64,000 nucleotides of DNA from Bacteroidota bacterium (GTDB taxonomy: Bacteria > Bacteroidota > Bacteroidia > Flavobacteriales_D > Sanyastnellaceae), in contig JAQBTQ010000011.1 in NCBI GenBank assembly GCA_027624855.1, positions 1 through 64,000 of the forward strand, written 5' to 3'. Position numbers and translations under genes: made by a program. Below are positions 12,088-36,287 of this stretch, piece after piece (the first letter of the stretch is position 1; each line of letters starts with the position of its first letter). Under the pieces are notes generated by a model. The model ran no database searches and was not told the DNA's origin. It saw only the letters and a program-made list of their open reading frames with translations.

Positions 12088-13011
12088 ATGATTCCTGTAG
12101 ACTGGAACATTAAAGACGAGTGGCAACCGCTGGAGGCGGTAATGGTCGGAATTGGCCAAGGAATGGGCAATCCTCCTTCCTTGGATGACACTTACGACCC
12201 GCAATCAAGGCGTCATGTGCTGGCAGGCACCTTTCCTTCCGAATTTTCTGTATCCGAGGAGTTAGCCAAATTGGTTGAACTATTAGAAAACCGAGGGGTT
12301 CGAGTCTTGCGGCCAGATGCGTTGGGGCTCAATCAAGTGTTCACAAGGGACATCGGGTTCGTCGTAGATGACACGTTCATCATGACCCACATGGTAGAAG
12401 ACCGTATTCCTGAACAAGACGGTTTGCAATCGATGTTTAACAGAAATCCTGGAATGGTCATCAAACCCCCTATCACCGTTCAGATGGAGGGTGGTGATAT
12501 CATGCCTATGCGCGATGAAATCTGGGTGGGCTATGCGAAAGATGCTGAATTTCAATCGTATACCACAGCTAGAACAAATGAAGCGGCCATTGAGTGGTTT
12601 AAACACAAATTCCCTCACCGAACTGTCAGATCATTTGAATTGCAAAAATCTGATACGGATCCATGGAAAAATGCGCTACACCTGGATTGTTGTATCGCGC
12701 CTTTGGGCATGGGACATTTAATGATTCATAAGCCCAGTTTTAGAAACATGGATGAATTGAAGCCCATCCTTCAACGATATCCCGAATCGCATGTTTTAGA
12801 AATATCTGAAGATGAAATGCAGGCTATGCATTGCAACGTGCTCAGTCTATCCCCAAAAACCGTTCTCTCTGGAAAAGGATTCGACCGAACCAATGAGCAA
12901 ATGAAACGTTGGGGATATGAAGTCATTGAGGCCGATCTTCGCGAAACTTCAAAAATGGGTGGTTTGCTAAGATGCACCACCCTACCGCTGCGCAGAACTC
13001 CTATCTCATGA
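12088..13011 (+). CDS. Arginine deiminase / amidinotransferase-superfamily enzyme
   Basis: 307 residues. The pentein-fold active site can be followed: EGGD at 134-137, LHLD with His198, and the C-terminal nucleophile Cys296 in GGLLRCTTLPLRR. The last motif resembles the arginine deiminase ending (GGxRCMxMPL) more than the GGxHC of amidinotransferases. The N-terminus has WQPLEAVMVG, shared across the superfamily. Such enzymes act on the guanidino carbon of arginine, methylarginine or related compounds. The exact reaction is not fixed by sequence. It overlaps the ctlX-like gene by four bases (ATGA) and arginyl-tRNA synthetase follows, so an arginine or citrulline substrate is likely. Confidence 0.82.
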   Translation: MIPVDWNIKDEWQPLEAVMVGIGQGMGNPPSLDDTYDPQSRRHVLAGTFPSEFSVSEELAKLVELLENRGVRVLRPDALGLNQVFTRDIGFVVDDTFIMTHMVEDRIPEQDGLQSMFNRNPGMVIKPPITVQMEGGDIMPMRDEIWVGYAKDAEFQSYTTARTNEAAIEWFKHKFPHRTVRSFELQKSDTDPWKNALHLDCCIAPLGMGHLMIHKPSFRNMDELKPILQRYPESHVLEISEDEMQAMHCNVLSLSPKTVLSGKGFDRTNEQMKRWGYEVIEADLRETSKMGGLLRCTTLPLRRTPIS

Positions 13012-13946
13012 ATCAATCCAGTTCCAACGTCTTTATGATTCGCCCAAGCTCGTTTCGCATGAATGATGAAACAGCTACGAACAATCACTATCAAAAAGCG
13101 CTCGAAGGACGAAGTGAATTTTCAATCATTGAAAATGCCCAAGCTGAATTTGATGGATTGGTAAAAACTCTGATAAGTTCAGGAATAGAGGTGATTGTAT
13201 TCGAAGAGAATGCCGACCACGATACGCCCGATGCTGTATTTCCGAATAATTGGATTTCTACCCATGAGGATGGGTGTGTTTGTCTGTATCCCATGTACGC
13301 CAAGAATCGCCGGCTTGAACGCCGGGAGGACATCCCCTTAATTCTTGCTCATCAGTACCATTTCAATGTTTCTGAAATCATCGATTTCACGGAATTTGAA
13401 AGTCACGAGAAGTTTTTAGAAGGAACGGGAAGTATGGTGCTGGATCGCAAGCACAAAAAGGCATACGCTGCGCTAAGCGAGCGCACGGACCAACGCGCTC
13501 TTGAGCATTTTTGTGAACAAATGGATTATACGCCAGTTCCATTCAATGCATTCCAAACAATTGATAATCAAAGACTTTCTATTTATCACACGAATGTAAT
13601 GATGAGCGTTGGTTCTGGCTTCGCGGCCATTTGTCTTGATGCAATTGATGATCCAGTAGAAAAAAATAGTGTGATGCAATCCCTAAAGGAAGATGGACTG
13701 GAAATCATTGTGTTGGATGAAAATCAAATCAATCAATTCGCTGGAAACATGCTCGAGTTGGTTGGCACTGGAGGCCAACCTTTTGTTGTCATGAGTGAAC
13801 AAGGCCTGAATTCGCTTCGACCCGCTCAAATAAGTGCCATAGAGGCCCACGCTCAAATCATCAGCGCTCCCTTGACTACCATTGAAACACTTGGTGGTGG
13901 AAGCGCACGATGCATGATTGCCGAAATTCACCTGGCCAGGTCTTAA
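13008..13946 (+). CDS. ctlX: Citrulline hydrolase CtlX-like protein (pentein fold)
   Basis: 312 residues from the ATG at 13008. An upstream in-frame start at 12972 is rejected because 13008 gives the standard ATGA coupling with the preceding gene. Motifs of the CtlX group are MIRPSSFRMNDETA near the N-terminus, PDAVFPNNWISTH (about 67-79), EGTGSMVLDR, His194 in YHTNVMMSVG, and the nucleophile Cys302 in GGGSARCMIAEIHL. CtlX of Francisella hydrolyses citrulline to ornithine, carbon dioxide and ammonia. The neighbour is an arginine-deiminase-like enzyme, which would supply citrulline. If both act as the family suggests, the pair converts arginine to ornithine and ammonia without carbamoyl phosphate. 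argS begins 10 bases downstream. Confidence 0.8.
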   Translation: MNQSSSNVFMIRPSSFRMNDETATNNHYQKALEGRSEFSIIENAQAEFDGLVKTLISSGIEVIVFEENADHDTPDAVFPNNWISTHEDGCVCLYPMYAKNRRLERREDIPLILAHQYHFNVSEIIDFTEFESHEKFLEGTGSMVLDRKHKKAYAALSERTDQRALEHFCEQMDYTPVPFNAFQTIDNQRLSIYHTNVMMSVGSGFAAICLDAIDDPVEKNSVMQSLKEDGLEIIVLDENQINQFAGNMLELVGTGGQPFVVMSEQGLNSLRPAQISAIEAHAQIISAPLTTIETLGGGSARCMIAEIHLARS

Positions 13947-16617: not shown

Positions 16618-19600
16618 TTACTCTCCACAATCTTGTCCATAGAATTGGAAGAACTCCAACAAGTCACCAACATTGACGAGTCCGTCGTCGTTGATGTCAC
16701 CAGGACAAGGATCTGGATAGTCACAACCACCAGGGTAGTTTGCATCCGGGTTGTAGTCATATCCGTCAGGATCCATACAACCTACAATCACACATGATCC
16801 ATCATCGATTGTTGCCAATGGATTGTAGTTGGCCGAAGCCATATCAGTACAACCCGCATATTCACATGATCCATCATCTACAATCGCCGAAGGATCATAG
16901 TTTTCTGCATCCATGTAAGTACAACCAGTCGAATAAATCGCTGTGATGTTTTGTTCAATTGTAGTTGAATTGCCGCATGCGTCCGTGAAGACCATGACGC
17001 GGTGCAATTCATAACCTGTCAGGCTGTTTCCAACCCAAGTATCCGAAGTCGTGTAGGTCCAATCACTGCAAGCGTCAGCCACTTCAACTCCTTCGAAGTC
17101 ATCCAGTTCGCTCGTTGCTTCATTTTCCAATACCACGTTTGCTTCATAGTTCACTACCGGTGGAGTGGTGTCTTCCAATTCAATTACTTGAGTGCCAGAA
17201 GCCATGTTTCCGCAACCATCAGTCACCGTCCAAGTTCGAGTGATGATGTTGTTTTCTAAGCAAGACCCTTCTGAGGTGCTGTATGCATCAGAGTACGAAA
17301 CATCGATATTCGAACTGCAAACATCTGCCGCATCATTCACGTCACCGGTCAAAGAAAGATCATTGACATCACTGTCGCACTCGATTGTGACATGCGCAGG
17401 TACCGTGAATGTCGGTGCAACTGTATCGTTGTAAGTCACCTGCACTGAGACCGAAGACTCATTTCCACAGGCATCAGTTGCCGTATACGTTCGGATGAAT
17501 GACATCTCTCCAGAGCAGCTCAAGCCTGTTTCAACATCAACATACGTTACGCTAACAGCAGAACAGTTATCCATTGCCACTGGGGCAGCTGGCATATCAT
17601 CTCCGCACTGCAACTCAACTTCAGCAGCTACCGCTTCGAATGTTGGCGCTTCGTTGTCTTCCACTGTAATGGTTTGGATCGCTGTTGAGCTATTTCCACA
17701 ACCATCCGTGAAGGTGTACTCACGAACCACTTCGAAACATCCGGCTTGTTCTTCTTCAACCGTAATGATGAGCGTGTAGTCTGTATAGGCATCAGGTCCT
17801 GCAGTCTCAAGACCTTCCTTGAACATCATGGTGTAAGTTCCATTTGAAACACCTCCTTCGAATCCAGCGATTTCCAATCCCATGAATTCAAATGGAGCTT
17901 CAAGGTCATCAAGGATTTCATCTCCAGGCGCTGTTCCAGGCATCACCCCTACCAACGCACCGCCAAACAATGCTGCCGTGGCTGCTGGGAAATCTTCCAT
18001 TGAAGAGAGAACCGGCAATGAAGTACCCTCGCCTATCCCGATGAATCCGCCACCGCCCTCGGTTGGGAATCCATTGTGTGTGAATTCAGCCAAAACAATG
18101 GATGAAATGACTTGACCCTCAGCCACCTCGATGGTGAAGTACTCTGGATCTGAATTTACACTTTGGAAGTTGGCCATAGAACCTGCAATCGTAGTCGTTC
18201 CTAGTGGCAACGTTCCCAATACAGTTGGGTTTGATGCATCACTGGACAAATCACCTGATTCATCTTCGTCATACTCAAGTGATGAAGTCTCTGCTCCACC
18301 GAGTTCTACCCAAGAGACAGTCACCTCTGCGCTGCAGTTGTCCTCAACGCTGTACGAACCGAATTCAGCTGAAGCGTCATAAGCTCCACAATCAAGTGTT
18401 ACATTCTCTACAGAGCCCATTGGTGCTTCAGTGTCAGTGAATGTGATTGTTTGCGTCGCAAACGCTGAGTTTCCACAAGCGTCCATTGCTTCAAACGTTC
18501 GGATGATTTCATTCAGACCAGTGCAGGTCATATCACCTTCTGCATCTGAGTAAGTCACCGTCACATCAGAACAAGCATCCGCTGCAGTTGCATTAACAGC
18601 AGGAATCTCATCACCACAAGACAACGTCAACCCTTCTGGCACACTGGTGAAGTATGGTGCGTTATCGTCAACCAACGTAATCGTTTGGTCTTGTGAACTT
18701 GAGTTGCCGCAGTCGTCTGTTGCAGTCCAAGTACGGGTGATCACATTGTTCGCGAAACATCCAGCTGTCGAGTAAGAATCGGAATACGTCACTTCAACAA
18801 ACTCTGAGCATCCGTCCACTGCATCTGTGACATCCCCTGTTGCGTTTAAATCGCTCGCATCCGATGTGCACGAAATGCTCGCATCAGCAGGAACTGTGAA
18901 CGTTGGAGCTGTGGTATCCACAACGTTGACCACTTGTTCAACCGTCGTGACATTTCCATTGTTATCCTCAGCAGTCCAAGTTCTCTGAATGGTCCACTCA
19001 CCTTGGCAATCGCCAGTAAATACCACGTCAGAATAGTTCACTGTTACCATGTCATCGCAGTTGTCTGCAAAAACAGGCTCACGAACGTCAGTCTCAGCCT
19101 CTTCGCACGTTGTCGTGTAAGAAGCTTCCATTGCAATTACTTCAGGATTCGTTGCATCATACAAACACGTTCCTTCGCACGATTCTCCTTCGTTTGCATA
19201 GTAGCAGGAACCATCATCCGTCATGTTACCCTCATCGTAGTTACATGCCATAGGATCTGTACATCCACAGCTTGGGCTTCCGAAAGAAAGGTTGACGTAA
19301 AGCGTGTTTCCAGCTGACAAACCATCAGGGAAAATCTGAACATACAACATACCATGGATGGTGCCAGGAGTCGTCAATTGAGCCACCAAGACTCGATTGT
19401 CATCGCCTGCCACTCCATATTGACCCATCATATCGGCGTTCATGTACCAACCGCTACCTACAGCGTCGGTAATTTCAATGTTTCCGCCGTTTTCAAATTC
19501 CGTTACCCAAGCAGGCTCGTTTCCACTCGCTGTTGGAGGGAATGACATCGCATCAGCAGGAGTTTCTGCTCCAAGTGTGACATAAGAATCCGATTCGAGC

Positions 19601-22600
19601 AATGGGAACATCGCGAACAATGACATGGGCGATGGCATTGCCGACCCGGCATCATTCTGATAGATTTCGCTAGAAGATGCCAATACGATCGGATTCAATG
19701 CGTTACCCAAGATGGCATTCACCACATCCGAAGAACTTGGTGTTGTGACATACACTTGGTAACGAATTGCACCTTCAACATCTGTTGGTAATTCTTCGAT
19801 TTCGATTCCGTACCCTTCGACACTCGATTCGATATTCTCGCAGCTGCAGTACTCACAGAAATCATCCGATGGGAATTCAACCCCAGGCTCATATGTACAA
19901 GCCATTGGATCGTCACACCCTTGTAGGATGTCGCAAATCAAGTCTCCATTCTCATCATCGCAGTTACCATCGCAATCGAATCCTTCTTCAGGATATTCAC
20001 ATGAACCATCGTTGAAATTAGGTTCTGGAATTACGTTTGGATTGTAGTTACATGCTGTCTCGTCGTTACAACCAATGCAGAATGGCGAAACCTGACACAT
20101 CGACTCATCATGCTCGGTAGCTTCTGGATCGTAGTTACAGTTTCCTTCAGTTGTACACCCGTAGATTTCCAATTCGTCGCAAACACCGTCGCCGTCTGTA
20201 TCACTGACGCATTCACCAGCACAGTCATATCCCAATTCTGGGTAGGCACAAGAACCGTCATCATACGTTGCTCCAGCATCGTAGTTACAGGCAGTTGCGT
20301 CAGTACATCCGCACTCGTTTCCACCGAAGCCGAGTGTCAGGTAGGTATCCTGGCTTTGATCTCCGTTCGGGAATACTTGGACATACAATTGTCCTGTTAC
20401 CTCACCAGAGGTCGTCAACTGAGCAACAAGTACTCGTTGATCCTCGCCTGCATATCCATTGCTCGCAGTAATCAAGGCGAACCATGATCCTCCGAAGAAG
20501 CTATCGATTGTCAAGTTGCCGCCAGCATTGAATTCGCTCTGCCAAGTGTCTCCTGGCGCTTCTACAACAGTGATTCCACTCTGGTCACCTGTAGCTTGTG
20601 ATTCAATGCCAATGGTCAACCAGCTATCATACATCAAACTTGGCACCACTGCAAAGAATGCAGGGTTAATGTTTGCCGGAGTAATTGCTCCGAATGGATG
20701 TTGATAGAAAGATGTTGTCGTATTCAAGTAAGCAGGAACGTTTACATCTCCAGAAACGGAACTAACAAAATCATCCGCACTTGGTGTGGTTACGTATACA
20801 CGGTAAGTGTTCAATCCTACAGGTAAATCTGGGTTTGAACCATCGTGGTTGGTTACCAATTCCAATTCGAGACCAAATCCAGCTTCTCCACCTGACCCGC
20901 ATGAGCAGTAGTCACAGCTTCCATCGTCGTAAGAGGCGCCTGCATCATAGTTACATGCAATATCGTCTGTACAACCCAACACTTCATTGACAGTGATGAT
21001 TTGATCAGCGGAAACGCTGTTTCCGCAAGCGTCAGTTGCCGTCCAAGTTCGGGTAATCACTGTGATTTCAATGTTGCTGTTGTCTTGGCTATCACTGTAG
21101 CTGATGGTCACATCATTGCAATCATCGGATGCCGTTGGCTCGATGACTTCCATATCATCACCATAGGTGTATGTAACATCCTCAGGGAATGAAGTGAAAA
21201 CCGGAGCTTCGTTGTCAACAATCATAATTGTTTGTGTGTGCTCGGAAGAATTACCGCACTCGTCGGTAGCTGTCCAAGTCCTGAAAATGGTGTAAGAATT
21301 TCCACAAGTTCCAGGCTGGATATCATCCGCAGGCTCAGAGATAGAGACTGCACCGCAGTCGTCTGCAGCAACAGATCCCATTGGAATTTCATCGTTGCAG
21401 CTCAACTCAAGATTGGCTGGCGTTGAAGTAAATTCTGGTCCTTCAGTATCGACGATGGTAAAGTATTGAACCGCAGTATCACTGTTATTACAGCCGTCTG
21501 TTACAGTCCAAGTTCTCATGATTCCAGCTTCAGCAAGACATGTAGAAACGTTGTCAAGCGTAAAATCAGCGGCATCCCCATCAGCATAAGTTGCTGTACC
21601 ATCCCAAGTTACTGTGATGCTGTTTCCATTGGCAGTTGCGGTCAATTCCGCACCAGGTGCGATGCCGTTGGCAACAACCGAAATTCCAGCCAAGTCATCA
21701 ACAGATAGGTTCGAGATCGTTACGATTGCATAGTCGTATTGATAAGGCGTACCCAATGTTCCATCAACATACATATTGATTGAAGAACCATCAATATCCA
21801 CGTTAATAGCACCTCTGTGATTCGAAGGATTAGAGGTTTCATCCGCCAACGTAATTTCTGGACCCGCACCAATTGTTACTCCAGTAGCTTCAAGGATGTA
21901 AGACTGTCCGAAAGGACCGCCGAAATCTTTACCCATCTCAACATGGAAATCAGCCGTAGCACCCGTCAAATCGAATCCAGGCGTGTAAGGAGCATCAACA
22001 TAAGAGAAGGTCAGATCGTCCGCGCAATTGTCATAAGAACTCGTTGGTTCCTCAGCGATGCCGGCACCAGGAGTCAAGTCATCCGAACATTGTACTGTCA
22101 AATCTTCCTGTGCAACAGCTACTGGAGCCTCGGTATCTTCCAAGTTGACCAATTGGGTCGCAGTCGCTGAGTTTCCGAAAGCGTCAGTGGCAGTGAATGT
22201 TCTAGTCAAAAGGTATCCACACGCTGCGTCTTCGACTGTTTCCTCCACAGTCACTGTTACTTCAGGAATGCATCCTTCGTCTTCTGCAGTGGCCATTTCC
22301 GTTGGCCAAGCGTCTGAGCAGCTTTGCGTCACATCAGCAGGAACCGATGTGAATACAGGAGCTACGTTATCTTCACTAGCATAACCAAATGGCAAGTGCA
22401 CTTGAATTGGATTCTGCTGATCTCCTTCTGGGAACATCTGCACAAACAATTCACCACTCAAGATACCGTTGGTCGTGAACTGTCCGACCAAAATCCGGTT
22501 GTCATCGCCAGATAATCCGTTGGTATATGTTCCGGCAGTTTCATCCCAAACAACAAACCAACCATCACCAAAAGGACCTTCCATTTCGATGTCTCCACCA

Positions 22601-24942
22601 CTGTTGAAGACCCCTTCCCAACCCGTAGTAGCTGGTACAACTTGAACCGCTGATTCGGTTGGCGACAACAAGTTGTTTTCAACACCAATGGTTACCCAGC
22701 TGTCGTAGGCCAGTTCTGGGAAAATCGCAAAGAAAGCAGGGCTAATTCCGTTTGGAGTCACACCTGAAATCAATGGTGATTGATAGAATGGTTGAGTTGA
22801 ACGGATGTACGTTGGATTGATGACATCTCCTGTAACTGCAGACAGCACGTCTGTAGTGTTAGGAGTCTCGATGTACATGCGCTGACGCGTTCCTTGTGGC
22901 GTCTCTTCCAAAGCTTCAATGATGATGTTATATCCTTCGACTGAAGCAGCTGCAGCACAGCAGTAATCACAGTTGCCATCTTCATCTGTTGCCGTGGCAT
23001 CGTAGTTACAAGCAGAGGCATCGGTACACCCTGCAATCTCCAATTCGTCACAAACGCCATCGCCGTCTGAATCGTTCAAGCAGTTACCATCGCAATCTTC
23101 AAACGGATCAGGATAAACACAAAGGGCATTATCAGAATCTGCGGTTGGATCATCGTTGTAGTTACATGCTGTGGCATCGGTACAAGCTTCAACTTCATCC
23201 TCATCGCATACGCCATCACCGTCAACATCGTTCAAACAATTTCCATCGCAGTCATACCCTTCTTCAGGGAAGATACAAGCAACCAAGTCGGTTGGCGCAG
23301 CAACGTAGTTACACGCAGCTGGATTCAAACAACCTTCGATTTCATTTTCATCACAAACGTAATCACCATCTGCATCGTTTAAGCAGTTGCCATCACAATC
23401 CAAGTTTTCTCCCCAATATGCTGGGCCATCCTGACATGAACCATCATCCCACAATGCAACAGGGTCATAGTTACAAGCCGCTTCATCTGTACAAGCGCAC
23501 AATGGAGAGGTCCATGAAATGTAGACCTCTTGTGATTGAGTTTGGTCTCCTTCCGGGAAGATTTGAACGTATAAATCGCCACTCAAGAAGCCATCTGTTG
23601 TGAATTGACCTATTAATACGCGGTTATCATCACCAGCGATTCCATTCGTGGATCCTGGAGAAAGGAACCAACCACCACCAGAACTTGTGCTGATTGAGAT
23701 ATCTGATCCAGCCTCAAAATCTGCTTGCCAAGTCTCGCCAGGAGTTTCAACCGTTTGTACCGAACCCTCTCCCGCTCCCGCATCTGGCGCTTGCGTGATG
23801 CCGATGGTTACGAACGAATCATAGGCACCAGCCGCGAATTCAGGAATCACACCAAAAGCAGAGTTCCAAGCGTTTGGCGTAACGCCACCACCAGGACCGA
23901 GGTACTGATAAAAATCTGTAGTCGTAGCTAAATTCATTGGGAAAGCTGCATAACCTGTTACTGCTGAAACGGCATCCGTAGGATTAGCTGTTGTGACGTA
24001 CAGACGATACGTCTTCAAACCAGTAATCCCTCCTACTGCATGCAATTCAACTTCAACGCCATAATCTGGGTTAGAAGATTCTACCGCATCGCAGCAATAA
24101 TCGCAACTTCCGTCATCATCATTGGCTTCCGCATCATAGTTACATGCGGTTGCATCGGTACATCCAGGATAGGTGCATGATCCATCATCCAACGTCGCAG
24201 CTGGCTGGTAATTCGTTGCTGTTGCATCCGTGCAACCACACAACTCATCGCTAAATGAGAATTGATGGCTTGAAGTCAGATTCGCGCCTTCATCATAAAA
24301 CTCGATGAAGAACGATCCGTTCAAAGCGCCATCAGTGGTCACTTGCGCAATCATCACGCGACCATCTGCTCCAGCGTAACTATTGGTTGCACCTGCAGGC
24401 ACAGACCAACCGCTTCCTGCAGCTGAGTTCGAGGCATCAATGCTCAAGTTGTTCCCTGCCAAAAAGCTTGGACCCCATGATTCTGAACCGGATAATGCAA
24501 CAGAAGATTCTCCTGATTGAGCCTCTGAGTCCAACCCAATGGTTACGTAACTATCGTATTCCAATGCTGGGAAAAACGAAAAGAGACCGGGGTTGATGTC
24601 ATTCACCGTCAATCCACCGAATTCGTTCATGTAGAACGACGTAGATGTGGTCAATTGAACTTCACCCGCAACTCCATCCGTGTATACCTTCGAGACATAA
24701 TCCAAAGGAGAATTTGTCTTCAGGTAAATCCGATAAGTTGTAGATCCTGCCAAAGCCGCAAGTGCTGGAGATGATTCCGTGCCATCAAAAGTGGCAAATT
24801 CCTCGACTTCCAATTGGAAACCGTCAGGAGCGCTGGCGCCGGAGTCGTAGCCAAAACAAGCAGTTTGAGCAAATAAAGGGCTGGAAAAACTTGTAAATCC
24901 TACAAGCAGTCCAAGCAAGATGGAAAATTTCGTCTGCATCAT
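16618..24942 (-). CDS. Giant secreted modular protein (HYR-like repeats, GCTD Cys motifs, C-terminal half-dockerin)
   Basis: 2774 residues from the ATG at 24942 (a TTG 5 codons upstream and a second ATG one codon on are alternatives). A signal peptide ends at LFAQ. Five copies of a ~200-residue module alternate with about 15 short Cys motifs of the form GCTDxxACNYxxxAxxDDGSC and calcium-type DGDGVCDExE repeats. Two blocks of HYR-like immunoglobulin repeats (about 860-1340 and 1940-2640; TxTDxCGNS cores) follow modules 3 and 5. The C-terminus is CPGDINDDGLVNVGDLLEFF, a single dockerin-like half, then a short tail ending CGE. There is no recognisable T9SS sorting domain. Likely a surface adhesin or structural protein. 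It is divergent from ffh with hairpins between. Confidence 0.85.
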   Translation of the reverse strand: MMQTKFSILLGLLVGFTSFSSPLFAQTACFGYDSGASAPDGFQLEVEEFATFDGTESSPALAALAGSTTYRIYLKTNSPLDYVSKVYTDGVAGEVQLTTSTSFYMNEFGGLTVNDINPGLFSFFPALEYDSYVTIGLDSEAQSGESSVALSGSESWGPSFLAGNNLSIDASNSAAGSGWSVPAGATNSYAGADGRVMIAQVTTDGALNGSFFIEFYDEGANLTSSHQFSFSDELCGCTDATATNYQPAATLDDGSCTYPGCTDATACNYDAEANDDDGSCDYCCDAVESSNPDYGVEVELHAVGGITGLKTYRLYVTTANPTDAVSAVTGYAAFPMNLATTTDFYQYLGPGGGVTPNAWNSAFGVIPEFAAGAYDSFVTIGITQAPDAGAGEGSVQTVETPGETWQADFEAGSDISISTSSGGGWFLSPGSTNGIAGDDNRVLIGQFTTDGFLSGDLYVQIFPEGDQTQSQEVYISWTSPLCACTDEAACNYDPVALWDDGSCQDGPAYWGENLDCDGNCLNDADGDYVCDENEIEGCLNPAACNYVAAPTDLVACIFPEEGYDCDGNCLNDVDGDGVCDEDEVEACTDATACNYNDDPTADSDNALCVYPDPFEDCDGNCLNDSDGDGVCDELEIAGCTDASACNYDATATDEDGNCDYCCAAAASVEGYNIIIEALEETPQGTRQRMYIETPNTTDVLSAVTGDVINPTYIRSTQPFYQSPLISGVTPNGISPAFFAIFPELAYDSWVTIGVENNLLSPTESAVQVVPATTGWEGVFNSGGDIEMEGPFGDGWFVVWDETAGTYTNGLSGDDNRILVGQFTTNGILSGELFVQMFPEGDQQNPIQVHLPFGYASEDNVAPVFTSVPADVTQSCSDAWPTEMATAEDEGCIPEVTVTVEETVEDAACGYLLTRTFTATDAFGNSATATQLVNLEDTEAPVAVAQEDLTVQCSDDLTPGAGIAEEPTSSYDNCADDLTFSYVDAPYTPGFDLTGATADFHVEMGKDFGGPFGQSYILEATGVTIGAGPEITLADETSNPSNHRGAINVDIDGSSINMYVDGTLGTPYQYDYAIVTISNLSVDDLAGISVVANGIAPGAELTATANGNSITVTWDGTATYADGDAADFTLDNVSTCLAEAGIMRTWTVTDGCNNSDTAVQYFTIVDTEGPEFTSTPANLELSCNDEIPMGSVAADDCGAVSISEPADDIQPGTCGNSYTIFRTWTATDECGNSSEHTQTIMIVDNEAPVFTSFPEDVTYTYGDDMEVIEPTASDDCNDVTISYSDSQDNSNIEITVITRTWTATDACGNSVSADQIITVNEVLGCTDDIACNYDAGASYDDGSCDYCSCGSGGEAGFGLELELVTNHDGSNPDLPVGLNTYRVYVTTPSADDFVSSVSGDVNVPAYLNTTTSFYQHPFGAITPANINPAFFAVVPSLMYDSWLTIGIESQATGDQSGITVVEAPGDTWQSEFNAGGNLTIDSFFGGSWFALITASNGYAGEDQRVLVAQLTTSGEVTGQLYVQVFPNGDQSQDTYLTLGFGGNECGCTDATACNYDAGATYDDGSCAYPELGYDCAGECVSDTDGDGVCDELEIYGCTTEGNCNYDPEATEHDESMCQVSPFCIGCNDETACNYNPNVIPEPNFNDGSCEYPEEGFDCDGNCDDENGDLICDILQGCDDPMACTYEPGVEFPSDDFCEYCSCENIESSVEGYGIEIEELPTDVEGAIRYQVYVTTPSSSDVVNAILGNALNPIVLASSSEIYQNDAGSAMPSPMSLFAMFPLLESDSYVTLGAETPADAMSFPPTASGNEPAWVTEFENGGNIEITDAVGSGWYMNADMMGQYGVAGDDNRVLVAQLTTPGTIHGMLYVQIFPDGLSAGNTLYVNLSFGSPSCGCTDPMACNYDEGNMTDDGSCYYANEGESCEGTCLYDATNPEVIAMEASYTTTCEEAETDVREPVFADNCDDMVTVNYSDVVFTGDCQGEWTIQRTWTAEDNNGNVTTVEQVVNVVDTTAPTFTVPADASISCTSDASDLNATGDVTDAVDGCSEFVEVTYSDSYSTAGCFANNVITRTWTATDDCGNSSSQDQTITLVDDNAPYFTSVPEGLTLSCGDEIPAVNATAADACSDVTVTYSDAEGDMTCTGLNEIIRTFEAMDACGNSAFATQTITFTDTEAPMGSVENVTLDCGAYDASAEFGSYSVEDNCSAEVTVSWVELGGAETSSLEYDEDESGDLSSDASNPTVLGTLPLGTTTIAGSMANFQSVNSDPEYFTIEVAEGQVISSIVLAEFTHNGFPTEGGGGFIGIGEGTSLPVLSSMEDFPAATAALFGGALVGVMPGTAPGDEILDDLEAPFEFMGLEIAGFEGGVSNGTYTMMFKEGLETAGPDAYTDYTLIITVEEEQAGCFEVVREYTFTDGCGNSSTAIQTITVEDNEAPTFEAVAAEVELQCGDDMPAAPVAMDNCSAVSVTYVDVETGLSCSGEMSFIRTYTATDACGNESSVSVQVTYNDTVAPTFTVPAHVTIECDSDVNDLSLTGDVNDAADVCSSNIDVSYSDAYSTSEGSCLENNIITRTWTVTDGCGNMASGTQVIELEDTTPPVVNYEANVVLENEATSELDDFEGVEVADACSDWTYTTSDTWVGNSLTGYELHRVMVFTDACGNSTTIEQNITAIYSTGCTYMDAENYDPSAIVDDGSCEYAGCTDMASANYNPLATIDDGSCVIVGCMDPDGYDYNPDANYPGGCDYPDPCPGDINDDGLVNVGDLLEFFQFYGQDCGE
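17000..19140 (-). repeat. Second HYR-like repeat block, with an inserted domain
   Basis: About six HYR-like units (for example TPPVVNYEANVVLENEA and AYFTSVPEGLTLSCGDEIP starts; TWTATDDCGNSSSQDQTI ends). One unit is split between DNCSAEVTVSWVELGG and CFEVVREYTFTDGCGNSS by a ~180-residue segment (about 17745-18295) that contains a Gly-rich GGGGFIGIGEG stretch. The split point is the same as in the first block. Confidence 0.6.
19265..24865 (-). repeat. Five copies of a ~200-residue module inside the giant protein
   Basis: Approximate copies: 24230-24865, 23490-24090, 22370-22965, 20305-20910 and 19265-19835. Each copy begins with a G(F/Y)xxExE-like strand, then YR(I/V)Y(V/L)xTxxxxDxVS, a short A/V-G segment, TxxFYQ, a PxxxxxFxxxPxLxYDSWxTIG core, a G(S/N)xxIx segment, a W(F/S)xxxxxxNxxAGxDxRVL(I/V)xQ(F/L)TTxG core, and L(Y/F)VQ(I/M)FPxGDQ near the end. 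The cores are conserved between copies while linkers vary. I know no family name for it. Every copy except the third is followed directly by a GCTD Cys motif. Confidence 0.75.
20975..22375 (-). repeat. First HYR-like repeat block, with an inserted domain
   Basis: Immunoglobulin-like units of the HYR type with APVFTSVPADVT starts and TFTATDAFGNS-type ends. Between DNCADDLTFSYVD and CLAEAGIMRTWTVTDGC a ~145-residue unrelated segment (about 21550-21985), beginning FDLTGATADFHVEMG, is inserted. The unit resumes normally afterwards. Confidence 0.6.
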
Positions 24943-24976
24943 TCCTAGGTTAAGCAACCGAAAATTACAAAATATC

Positions 24977-34505: not shown

Positions 34506-36287
34506 TCAAGGACAGATCGCTCCAAACGCACCCAAGAACATGAGTAAATCACCTGTATTCACCTGGCCATCGTTGTTGATGTCCTCTGGGCAGGAACTCG
34601 ACGCAGGTAAAATACAGGAACCATCATCCCACATGGCTGCTGGATCATAATTGATGGCTTCACTCCACGTGCAACCTGCACAGCTGGTGACTTCACATGA
34701 GCCGTCGTCTACGGTGGCCTCAGGAAGGTAATTGCACGCGAAATCATACATGCATCCGGGAATTTCTGTTCCCGTTGAATTCCATTCACCAAAAAGCCCA
34801 AGCTGCTCCATGTAGGTCCAGCAAGTCAACCAATTGGAGCCGTCCCAAGGAAATGCGCCGATGTAGTCAACAGGATAAAACCAATCCTCGCTCGGTAAGA
34901 ATTCAGCTGCAACCGTCATGGAATCAGACGCAGTTGGCGTGAGATTGATCGGTTCTGTGACAAAGCCATCCAAAGACTCAAATTGATAATCGAGTTGCGG
35001 ATTTACTGCGAAGTTGTTGTTCGACAGAAAATGCGCTTCCACTTCCTCTTGTCCGTTGAAAACATAACCGGCATTGTAAAGAATCATTTCAGCCAATCCG
35101 GTTGAATCACCGATGTCCCAAAACCGGTTATTTCGAATTTGGGTCTCCCCAAACAAGAGTAATTCCCACGCGTCACAGGGATCCTCATCTTCAAAATCGA
35201 TTCCCAATTCATGATTCAAAAACAAACTATTATGCATTCGAACGCCCGCCCCGTTGTGCATTCGAATCGCCGTCGTTTGTCCACGCCCCAAATACGTTTG
35301 ATTGTACAGCAACGGGTTCGAATAAGGCATGAACGTCATGTCGACGTCGAACTCCTCATAATCATCGCCCTCGTAATCACCTCCATGTTCACCGATGCCA
35401 TTGACTTCGTCAGTTACGACGAAAATGAATTGTCCATTTCCTTGCCATCCTTGATCATATTCCAAACCATCCTCTTTGTTAAATGCCAATCCCAAATGGC
35501 GGACATTCACATCACCCCCAAAAATTTGAATCCCGTCATCCGCACTTGCTACCGCTTCAATGAAATCAATCGTTGTTCCAGAGCCGACACCGCACAAAGT
35601 CAACGCGTTGGTCTCAAGGCCATTGCCAAACTGGCTGATACCCGCCGAAGTGGAGGCATGACGAATACTGATGTAAGTCAAAATTCCCGAATTCGTATGT
35701 TCCAATCCGCTTCCGCCATACACGTTGCGATTCTGTCCACTCTCATCTGTAATTCCCTCAACATCCGCTGTTCCATCGAAGGTGTTTAATGCTCCATCTC
35801 CGCAAAGAATCAAACCTCCCCAGCGTCCGGAAACATCATATCCTTGACTCCCATCCATCGGGTCATCTTCCCCGGTGAAAACAATGGGACAATCGGGAGT
35901 TCCTTGGGCATTGAGATGACCGCCGACGGCAATTACGAGGCTTCCTGCGACTTGGCTAAAAACATAATCCAATCGTGGGGATGGATTTCCGTTGGGCAAG
36001 GTATAGGTCAGGGTATCAACCACGATAGCTTCACGGCCTTTTACAAGCGTTCCGGGCTCAATCGTTAACGTATCACCCGAGTTAACGTAAACCGTCTCTG
36101 TCAACACATAAATCGTATCGCAACTCCATGTGGCTGTTCCAATTCCGAGGCCGCTTTGATCAGAAACTTCAAAGATGGGTCGCTCAGGCAAGGGGAGGCA
36201 ATCACAAGGGCCAGATTGCGAGAAGACCATCTCATGCGCAATGAAAACCCATGTCACAAGCATCAAGAAGCGACAAACATGTCTCAT
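34506..36287 (-). CDS. Secreted beta-helix-like protein with GCTD motifs and half-dockerin C-terminus
   Basis: 593 residues. Signal peptide ends near VFSQS. Residues about 60-470 resemble Bacteroidota surface proteins with parallel beta-helix repeats: TLTIEPGTLVKG, RWGGLILCGDG, NVYGGSGLEHTNSGILTYIS and GIQIFGGDVNVRHL. The C-terminal 90 residues carry two Cys motifs (GCMYDFACNYLPEATVDDGSC-like) and finish CPEDINNDGQVNTGDLLMFL, the same half-dockerin ending as the giant protein 18 kb away on the same strand. No T9SS sorting domain is seen, so the shared ending may replace it. Role unknown. A 10-base palindrome precedes the start. Confidence 0.8.
   Translation of the reverse strand: MRHVCRFLMLVTWVFIAHEMVFSQSGPCDCLPLPERPIFEVSDQSGLGIGTATWSCDTIYVLTETVYVNSGDTLTIEPGTLVKGREAIVVDTLTYTLPNGNPSPRLDYVFSQVAGSLVIAVGGHLNAQGTPDCPIVFTGEDDPMDGSQGYDVSGRWGGLILCGDGALNTFDGTADVEGITDESGQNRNVYGGSGLEHTNSGILTYISIRHASTSAGISQFGNGLETNALTLCGVGSGTTIDFIEAVASADDGIQIFGGDVNVRHLGLAFNKEDGLEYDQGWQGNGQFIFVVTDEVNGIGEHGGDYEGDDYEEFDVDMTFMPYSNPLLYNQTYLGRGQTTAIRMHNGAGVRMHNSLFLNHELGIDFEDEDPCDAWELLLFGETQIRNNRFWDIGDSTGLAEMILYNAGYVFNGQEEVEAHFLSNNNFAVNPQLDYQFESLDGFVTEPINLTPTASDSMTVAAEFLPSEDWFYPVDYIGAFPWDGSNWLTCWTYMEQLGLFGEWNSTGTEIPGCMYDFACNYLPEATVDDGSCEVTSCAGCTWSEAINYDPAAMWDDGSCILPASSSCPEDINNDGQVNTGDLLMFLGAFGAICP

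Follow-up and report, generated by a model that had tools for sequence, protein, structure and literature searches.

The described systems closest to the one presented here include the N domains of Als/MSCRAMM-type adhesins, which are ligand-binding sandwiches, and the cohesins (PF00963), which are beta-sandwich domains. For one end of the protein under study, they also include the dockerins (Dockerin_1, PF00404, and the GC-type dockerin, NF041540), characterized by two calcium-loop repeats. The protein itself, from an uncultured flavobacterium, is encoded within the window, i.e. the whole stretch of 64,000 nucleotides that was analysed, and it harbors five copies of a module of ~190-195 residues. 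This module is a real and abundant domain family that is matched by none of the Pfam and NCBIfam models searched. The best explanation is that the module is a ~190-residue extracellular beta-sandwich domain, unnamed until now, and that the giant protein corresponds to an exported string-of-beads scaffold or adhesin whose modules bind outside the cell; we give this explanation a probability of roughly 0.6. Table 1 presents the features of the locus.

The giant protein and its modules

The giant protein of 2774 aa is read on the minus strand from an ATG at 24942 to the stop at 16618; an in-frame TTG at 24957, upstream of this ATG, would add 5 aa. Judging from the sequence, its N-terminus is probably a Sec signal peptide and the protein is probably exported. 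A T9SS sorting domain (TIGR04183 or TIGR04131) was not matched on it at E<=1 in the NCBIfam search. Nothing in NCBIfam exceeded its cut-off on the whole protein, the best match being LapB_rpt_80 (33.9 bits vs a cut-off of 45), with its best stretch in the HYR part. No operon, enzyme or ligand partner was found for the protein, which is flanked by two housekeeping genes, argS and ffh. Elsewhere in the window, two adjoining genes (12088-13946, plus strand) each match DDAH_eukar (E 3.1e-15 and 1.2e-105).

Table 1. Coordinates of the giant-protein gene and its parts within the window, from the N- to the C-terminus
Feature	Position	Strand	Basis or remark
Giant-protein ORF, five modules	16618..24942	-	between argS (ends 15753, +) and ffh (starts 25099, +)
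Probable Sec signal peptide MMQTKFSILLGLLVGFTSFSSPLFAQ	24865..24942	-	read from sequence
Module M1, aa 28-236	24235..24861	-	BLASTP pairs
Cys motifs, M1-M2	24094..24234	-	sequence/regex
Module M2, aa 284-483	23494..24093	-	BLASTP pairs
Cys motifs and calcium-type repeats CDGNCLNDxDGDGVCDE, M2-M3	22963..23493	-	sequence/regex
Module M3, aa 661-855	22378..22962	-	HYR-type sequence directly after, no Cys motif
HYR block 1, bounds approximate (read from sequence)	20977..22377	-	PF23237 E 1.1e-39
Unassigned ~150-aa insert within HYR block 1	about 21523-21993	-	
Single Cys motif just ahead of M4	20899..20976	-	sequence/regex
Module M4, aa 1349-1545	20308..20898	-	AlphaFold2 model m99ddcc9ea4e2
Cys motifs and calcium-type repeat, M4-M5	19840..20307	-	first 80 aa modelled with M4 (mdefd81a2fcd1)
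Module M5, aa 1702-1893	19264..19839	-	BLASTP pairs
Cys motif after M5	19141..19263	-	sequence/regex
HYR block 2, bounds approximate	16948..19140	-	PF23237; after M5
Unassigned insert within HYR block 2	about 17743-18267	-	hardly aligns with orthologues
Three C-terminal Cys motifs GCTYMDAENYDP..., GCTDMASANYNP..., GCMDPDGYDYNP...	16717..16926	-	read from sequence
Extreme C-terminal half-dockerin-like tail PDPCPGDINDDGLVNVGDLLEFFQFYGQDCGE	16621..16716	-	profile and Dockerin_1 comparison

An earlier note on this DNA had described five diverged copies of the module, and this description is confirmed. All ten pairs of M1-M5 align in BLASTP with 31-46% identity and 79-136 bits, far above a shuffled control (1000 shuffled copies, 200 per module) that tops out at 26.2 bits. 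An alignment of the five copies has 25 invariant columns out of 226, four of which remain invariant across the 88 rows of a broader alignment (A2) made of 83 non-redundant sequences, out of 196 long rows from loci L048-L120, and of the 5 window copies. The cores quoted in the note turned out to be a consensus rather than strict motifs, as regular expressions found YRxYVxT in four of the five copies (M3 has QRMYIET) and YDSxxTIG also in four (M5 has SDSYVTLG). The Cys motif was correctly placed after all copies but one: C(G/A)CTDxxAxNY directly follows M1, M2, M4, and M5, but not M3.

The Cys motifs between modules are of the type GCTDxxACNYDxxAxxDDGSC. The calcium-type repeats owe their label to likeness and to a weak TSP3_bac match (E 0.072) located elsewhere in the giant protein, which is the sole library match to such repeats in this protein. 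Separation of the modules by these two kinds of elements, claimed to be invariable, holds at most junctions but not between M3 and M4. The gap there is 493 residues long and consists mostly of HYR_4C-type sequence and an unassigned insert, with one Cys motif right before M4. HYR_4C (PF23237) scores well above its cut-off in the Pfam search (134.9 bits vs 27), with 9 stretches in the whole protein. The insert of the second HYR block could be aligned with each of four orthologues over just 7-9 residues.

Sequence relationships and predicted fold

No named family could be assigned to the module by sequence. The whole-protein Pfam search gave nothing above cut-off on the modules and, when the five window copies were searched separately, three had no Pfam match at E<=10 and two had a single sub-threshold match each. 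Among the 88 diverse rows, the best E-value was 0.0025 in Pfam, for DUF7359 (PF24058), which was matched in 6 of them, and 0.018 in NCBIfam. Membership of a Pfam or NCBIfam family was thus rejected, all matches being sub-threshold. Likewise, searches of PDB sequences with the module profile yielded E-values of 0.26-0.76 on short unrelated stretches, and a relative recognizable by sequence in the PDB was rejected. The module is not named in the titles and abstract openings of the literature matches listed, and its core peptides gave no paper. The suggestion that no known domain family shows this pattern is therefore upheld, a strong Pfam match of each copy being the finding that had been named as able to overturn it.

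AlphaFold2 predicts M4, with the 88 rows, as a confident domain (pLDDT 95.3, pTM 0.90) made up largely of strands, its central part containing short helices. A second model comprises M4 and the 80 following residues, which form a Cys/calcium-type piece (pLDDT 92.3, pTM 0.75). The alignment of such composites (A5) comprises 62 of the 64 non-redundant ones, out of 124, together with 4 window copies, M3 being left out because no Cys motif follows it. The attached piece is mostly ordered in the second model, its last ten residues having low confidence. The model is consistent with beads on ordered linkers and lends support to the string of folded beads proposed in the earlier note.

Comparison of the M4 model with known structures points to a broad fold class rather than to a family. 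Foldseek gave no match at E<=1e-3 in the PDB or in BFVD, and its best row was FnBPA (E 5.1e-3). In a second structural comparison covering 1000 chains, 35 had Z>=5 and none had Z>=8, values under 8 being such as may reflect merely a common arrangement. The 50 structural matches listed comprise 6 Als adhesin, 23 cohesin, 11 complement C3/C5/cobra venom factor, 2 FnBPA, and 8 other entries. The top row is Als9-2 (Z 6.3), and the cohesin rows among the matches listed range from 4.7 to 5.7, with 112 of 138 residues aligned for 2xdh. We take most of the listed matches to belong to SCOP fold b.2. Since no structural match exceeds Z 6.3, the fold is a weak guide to function.

Distribution and evolution of the module

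The profile search gave 39 module matches in the own 2.29-Mb genome, and a rescan of the fetched regions gave 39 modules, spread over 20 ORFs that contain 1-5 each. This genome-wide recurrence was beyond what the earlier note could detect, and HYR domains and a recurrent C-terminal tail are further parts of the architecture. One of these ORFs, of 208 aa, is a lone module with neither type of tail (see below). At least seven module ORFs of this genome run off contig ends (contigs C5, C7, C9, C10, C11, C26, and C29), as if repetitive genes had broken the assembly. In relatives, the module was found in 27 out of 40 genomes, and at the level of the order in 153 out of 399 (E<=1e-3), as compared with 3 out of 395 in a sample of the phylum; the order and phylum searches scored no more than 8 candidates per genome for the module and 18 for the tail. 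By subtraction, 113 of the 114 sampled genomes of the own family (f1) are module-positive. The remaining module-positive genomes belong to family f9 (38 genomes) and to families f4 and f8 (one each). The module family is thus nearly universal in one Flavobacteriales family, with diverged forms in others. In f9, the module is lengthened by an additional stretch that separates its two conserved halves, and it is preceded by what reads as a signal peptide. Three f9 module ORFs were scanned for a T9SS tail, which was above cut-off in one, below it in another, and lacking in the third.

A pattern scan of 84,980 species genomes, which relied on one short pattern and could miss relatives outside Flavobacteriales, gave 254 matches, of which 85 were confirmed and 80 kept, in 73 loci. 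The titles of the contigs concerned refer to Flavobacteriales, Crocinitomicaceae, Bacteroidetes or Bacteroidia, with three exceptions: a plain 'bacterium' isolate with two loci, and two 'euryarchaeote/Euryarchaeota' bins. The latter (L060 and L064) carry close relatives of the giant protein, L060 having five modules and part of argS, and they are probably mis-binned flavobacterial contigs. According to the contig titles, the module-bearing group is known almost only from metagenome-assembled genomes; from isolate names, we presume that it is marine. A viral origin of the module was rejected, as none of the 54 pattern matches in an IMG/VR scan was confirmed and BFVD had no match at E<=1e-3. A plasmid or phage origin was also rejected, as a tblastn search of plasmids and phages with M4 gave no match at E<=1e-3.

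Among 14 loci examined (L048-L060 and L067, several of them incomplete), argS is present in 13 and ffh in 10. Nine full-length five-module orthologues, located beside argS or ffh, have kept the order of the five copies. Each module matches best its own position in these orthologues, in 45 of 45 comparisons and with 46-85% identity, as against 35-46% for the second-best position. Two comparisons deviate, both in incomplete loci, one with a missing M5 (L056) and the other with a truncated M3 (L055). Divergence of the copies therefore predates that of these species, and the order of the copies has been maintained since; recent tandem amplification was rejected on the same grounds. Between the modules and their counterparts in the two nearest orthologues compared, dN is 0.10-0.19 vs a dS of at least 1.8. 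For the other two orthologues, dN is 0.20-0.53, and dS is at least 1.8 or saturated. With dS saturated or at 1.1-3.1, no numerical dN/dS ratio is quoted. The first module lies within 130 residues of the start of the open frame in all 18 own ORFs whose 5' side is intact and in 48 of 56 ORFs from related loci, and it lies deeper in the other 8.

C-terminal tails

The giant protein ends in CPGDINDDGLVNVGDLLEFFQFYGQDCGE, with a single calcium-loop-like repeat of the pattern GDxNxDGxxxxxDLL. This end remains below the Dockerin_1 cut-off (one repeat, 14.3 bits vs 22.9) and gave no match to the GC-type dockerin NF041540. A profile built from 22 tails picked by hand, from the own family, matched the own genome 55 times, with E<=1e-3 in 46 cases. 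Of these 46, 34 end at most 6 residues from the stop codon; the other 12 comprise 8 initial repeats of dockerin-like ends that have two repeats, and 4 matches of neither kind. The tail is thus a minimal, cysteine-flanked and mostly one-repeat dockerin-like element carried by about three dozen proteins of the genome. Dockerin_1 itself is over its cut-off at two places in this genome and, with neighbours in frame, at a third, a 389-aa ORF with a diverged module. Within the window, a 593-aa protein (34506-36287, minus strand) has Cys motifs, no module, and the same extreme C-terminal tail, CPEDINNDGQVNTGDLLMFLGAFGAICP; it also shows a weak beta-helix match and 14.4 bits for dockerin_GC (NF041540).

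The tail is found on 9 of the 15 own module ORFs with a complete 3' end, the remaining ends being four TIGR04183, one TIGR04131, and one neither. It is also found on 48 of the 57 module ORFs of related loci with a complete 3' end; of the others, four are above the TIGR04183 cut-off, three are weak T9SS-type ends, and two are broken or masked frames. The own genome has 69 TIGR04183 matches, 66 of them over cut-off. The tail is thus a candidate C-terminal signal, in addition to the type IX sorting tail, and it would offer these bacteria a second way by which they may place proteins extracellularly.

Possible roles of the module

In an exported string of binding beads, the five old and position-specific copies would be mounted on disulfide- and calcium-type linkers and on HYR_4C domains. 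The protein would undergo Sec export and then pass over the outer membrane, and its Cys and calcium-type linkers would become oxidised and calcium-loaded, stiffening the string. The beads may be the binding parts of a surface adhesin or scaffold whose ligand would be a protein or a glycan. The tail may retain or dock the protein outside the cell, and other module proteins would use a type IX sorting tail. The modules are regarded as binders because of their fold class, their early N-terminal position, the existence of single-module ORFs, and their position-specific conservation. Points against this reading are that the giant protein has no T9SS sorting domain to account for its passage over the outer membrane, that no partner was found, that the structural matches stay at Z 6.3 or below, that the lone-module ORF of 208 aa bears neither type of tail, and that the first module lies deeper in 8 of 56 related ORFs.

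The repeated mounting on Cys and calcium-type linkers and the frequent repetition of the module would also suit structural spacers, i.e. rigid beads that set the length of a fibre, the activity residing in the HYR or insert domains. This reading seems unlikely, as a pure spacer predicts neither the 25 invariant columns at such low identity, four of them persisting in the 88 rows, nor the position-specific identity retained in orthologues, nor single-module ORFs, although some of the invariance could be due simply to constraints of the fold.

We are similarly doubtful that the module is a highly diverged member of a named family, such as DUF7359, the cohesins or an MSCRAMM/Als adhesin domain, that profile methods have missed. 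The sub-threshold DUF7359 matches and the broad similarity of the fold to named sandwich families would fit such an origin. However, DUF7359 exceeded its cut-off in none of the 6 genomes searched, the cohesin profile comparison described below was negative, and Foldseek retrieved nothing significant from the PDB or BFVD; among the named families, profile-profile comparison covered the cohesins.

A further reading would make the module an analogue of cohesin, gripping the half-dockerin-like tails of many proteins of the same genome, and the giant protein, with its five modules and one tail, a counterpart of a scaffoldin. It draws on the 23 cohesins among the 50 structural matches listed, on the 46 tail matches with their 34 C-terminal ones, and on the lack of any Pfam cohesin over cut-off in the own genome. 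Moreover, of the 399 genomes of the order, 116 have the tail at E<=1e-6, and 115 of these also have the module at E<=1e-3. The lone exception, G672, is 71% complete, and the tail-positive genomes outside f1 are module-positive in 10 cases out of 10, each with one weak tail match. A single family accounts for most of this co-occurrence, for which descent is a confounder; this family also supplied the tails for the tail profile, and the thresholds differ between tail and module. In addition, the tail is missing at E<=1e-6 from 38 of the 153 genomes with the module, T9SS tails take its place on some module proteins, and adhesin and complement domains score equal or higher structurally. By sequence, PF00963 is absent among the Pfam matches of the 5 window copies and of the 88 rows, and its one match in the own genome (E 0.15) is below cut-off and not at a module. 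A profile-profile comparison (hhalign) of the 88-row alignment with 30 Bacteroidota cohesins, found with PF00963, gave a probability of 0.5% and an E-value of 0.13. Homology to cohesins by profile was thus rejected, and gripping of the tails by the modules appears very improbable. The same low standing is given to the broader proposal that this Flavobacteriales family evolved its own cohesin-dockerin-like surface assembly, with dozens of modules as receptors for dockerin-like tails.

The exported string of beads with binding modules is thus the reading that we prefer. Naming the module would annotate many giant proteins.

Comparison with known systems

The neighbouring HYR_4C shares the protein with the module and is a separate domain, found between M3 and M4 and after M5. 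Dockerins resemble the tail alone, through a calcium-loop-like repeat at the extreme C-terminus, and the tail differs from them by its single, Cys-flanked and sub-threshold repeat. The N domains of Als/MSCRAMM-type adhesins supply the best structural and Foldseek rows and are sandwiches, a fold that the module may share. The Als rows nevertheless show 7-9% identity over 116-119 residues, with Z under 8, and these adhesins belong to other organisms, have another architecture and show no link to the module in the Pfam or PDB sequence searches. Finally, the module is ~50 residues longer than a cohesin and carries other conserved motifs. Like cohesins, it is repeated within large proteins made of several domains, alongside dockerin-like tails encoded by the same genome, and its predicted beta-sandwich may be of broadly similar arrangement (Z up to 5.7).
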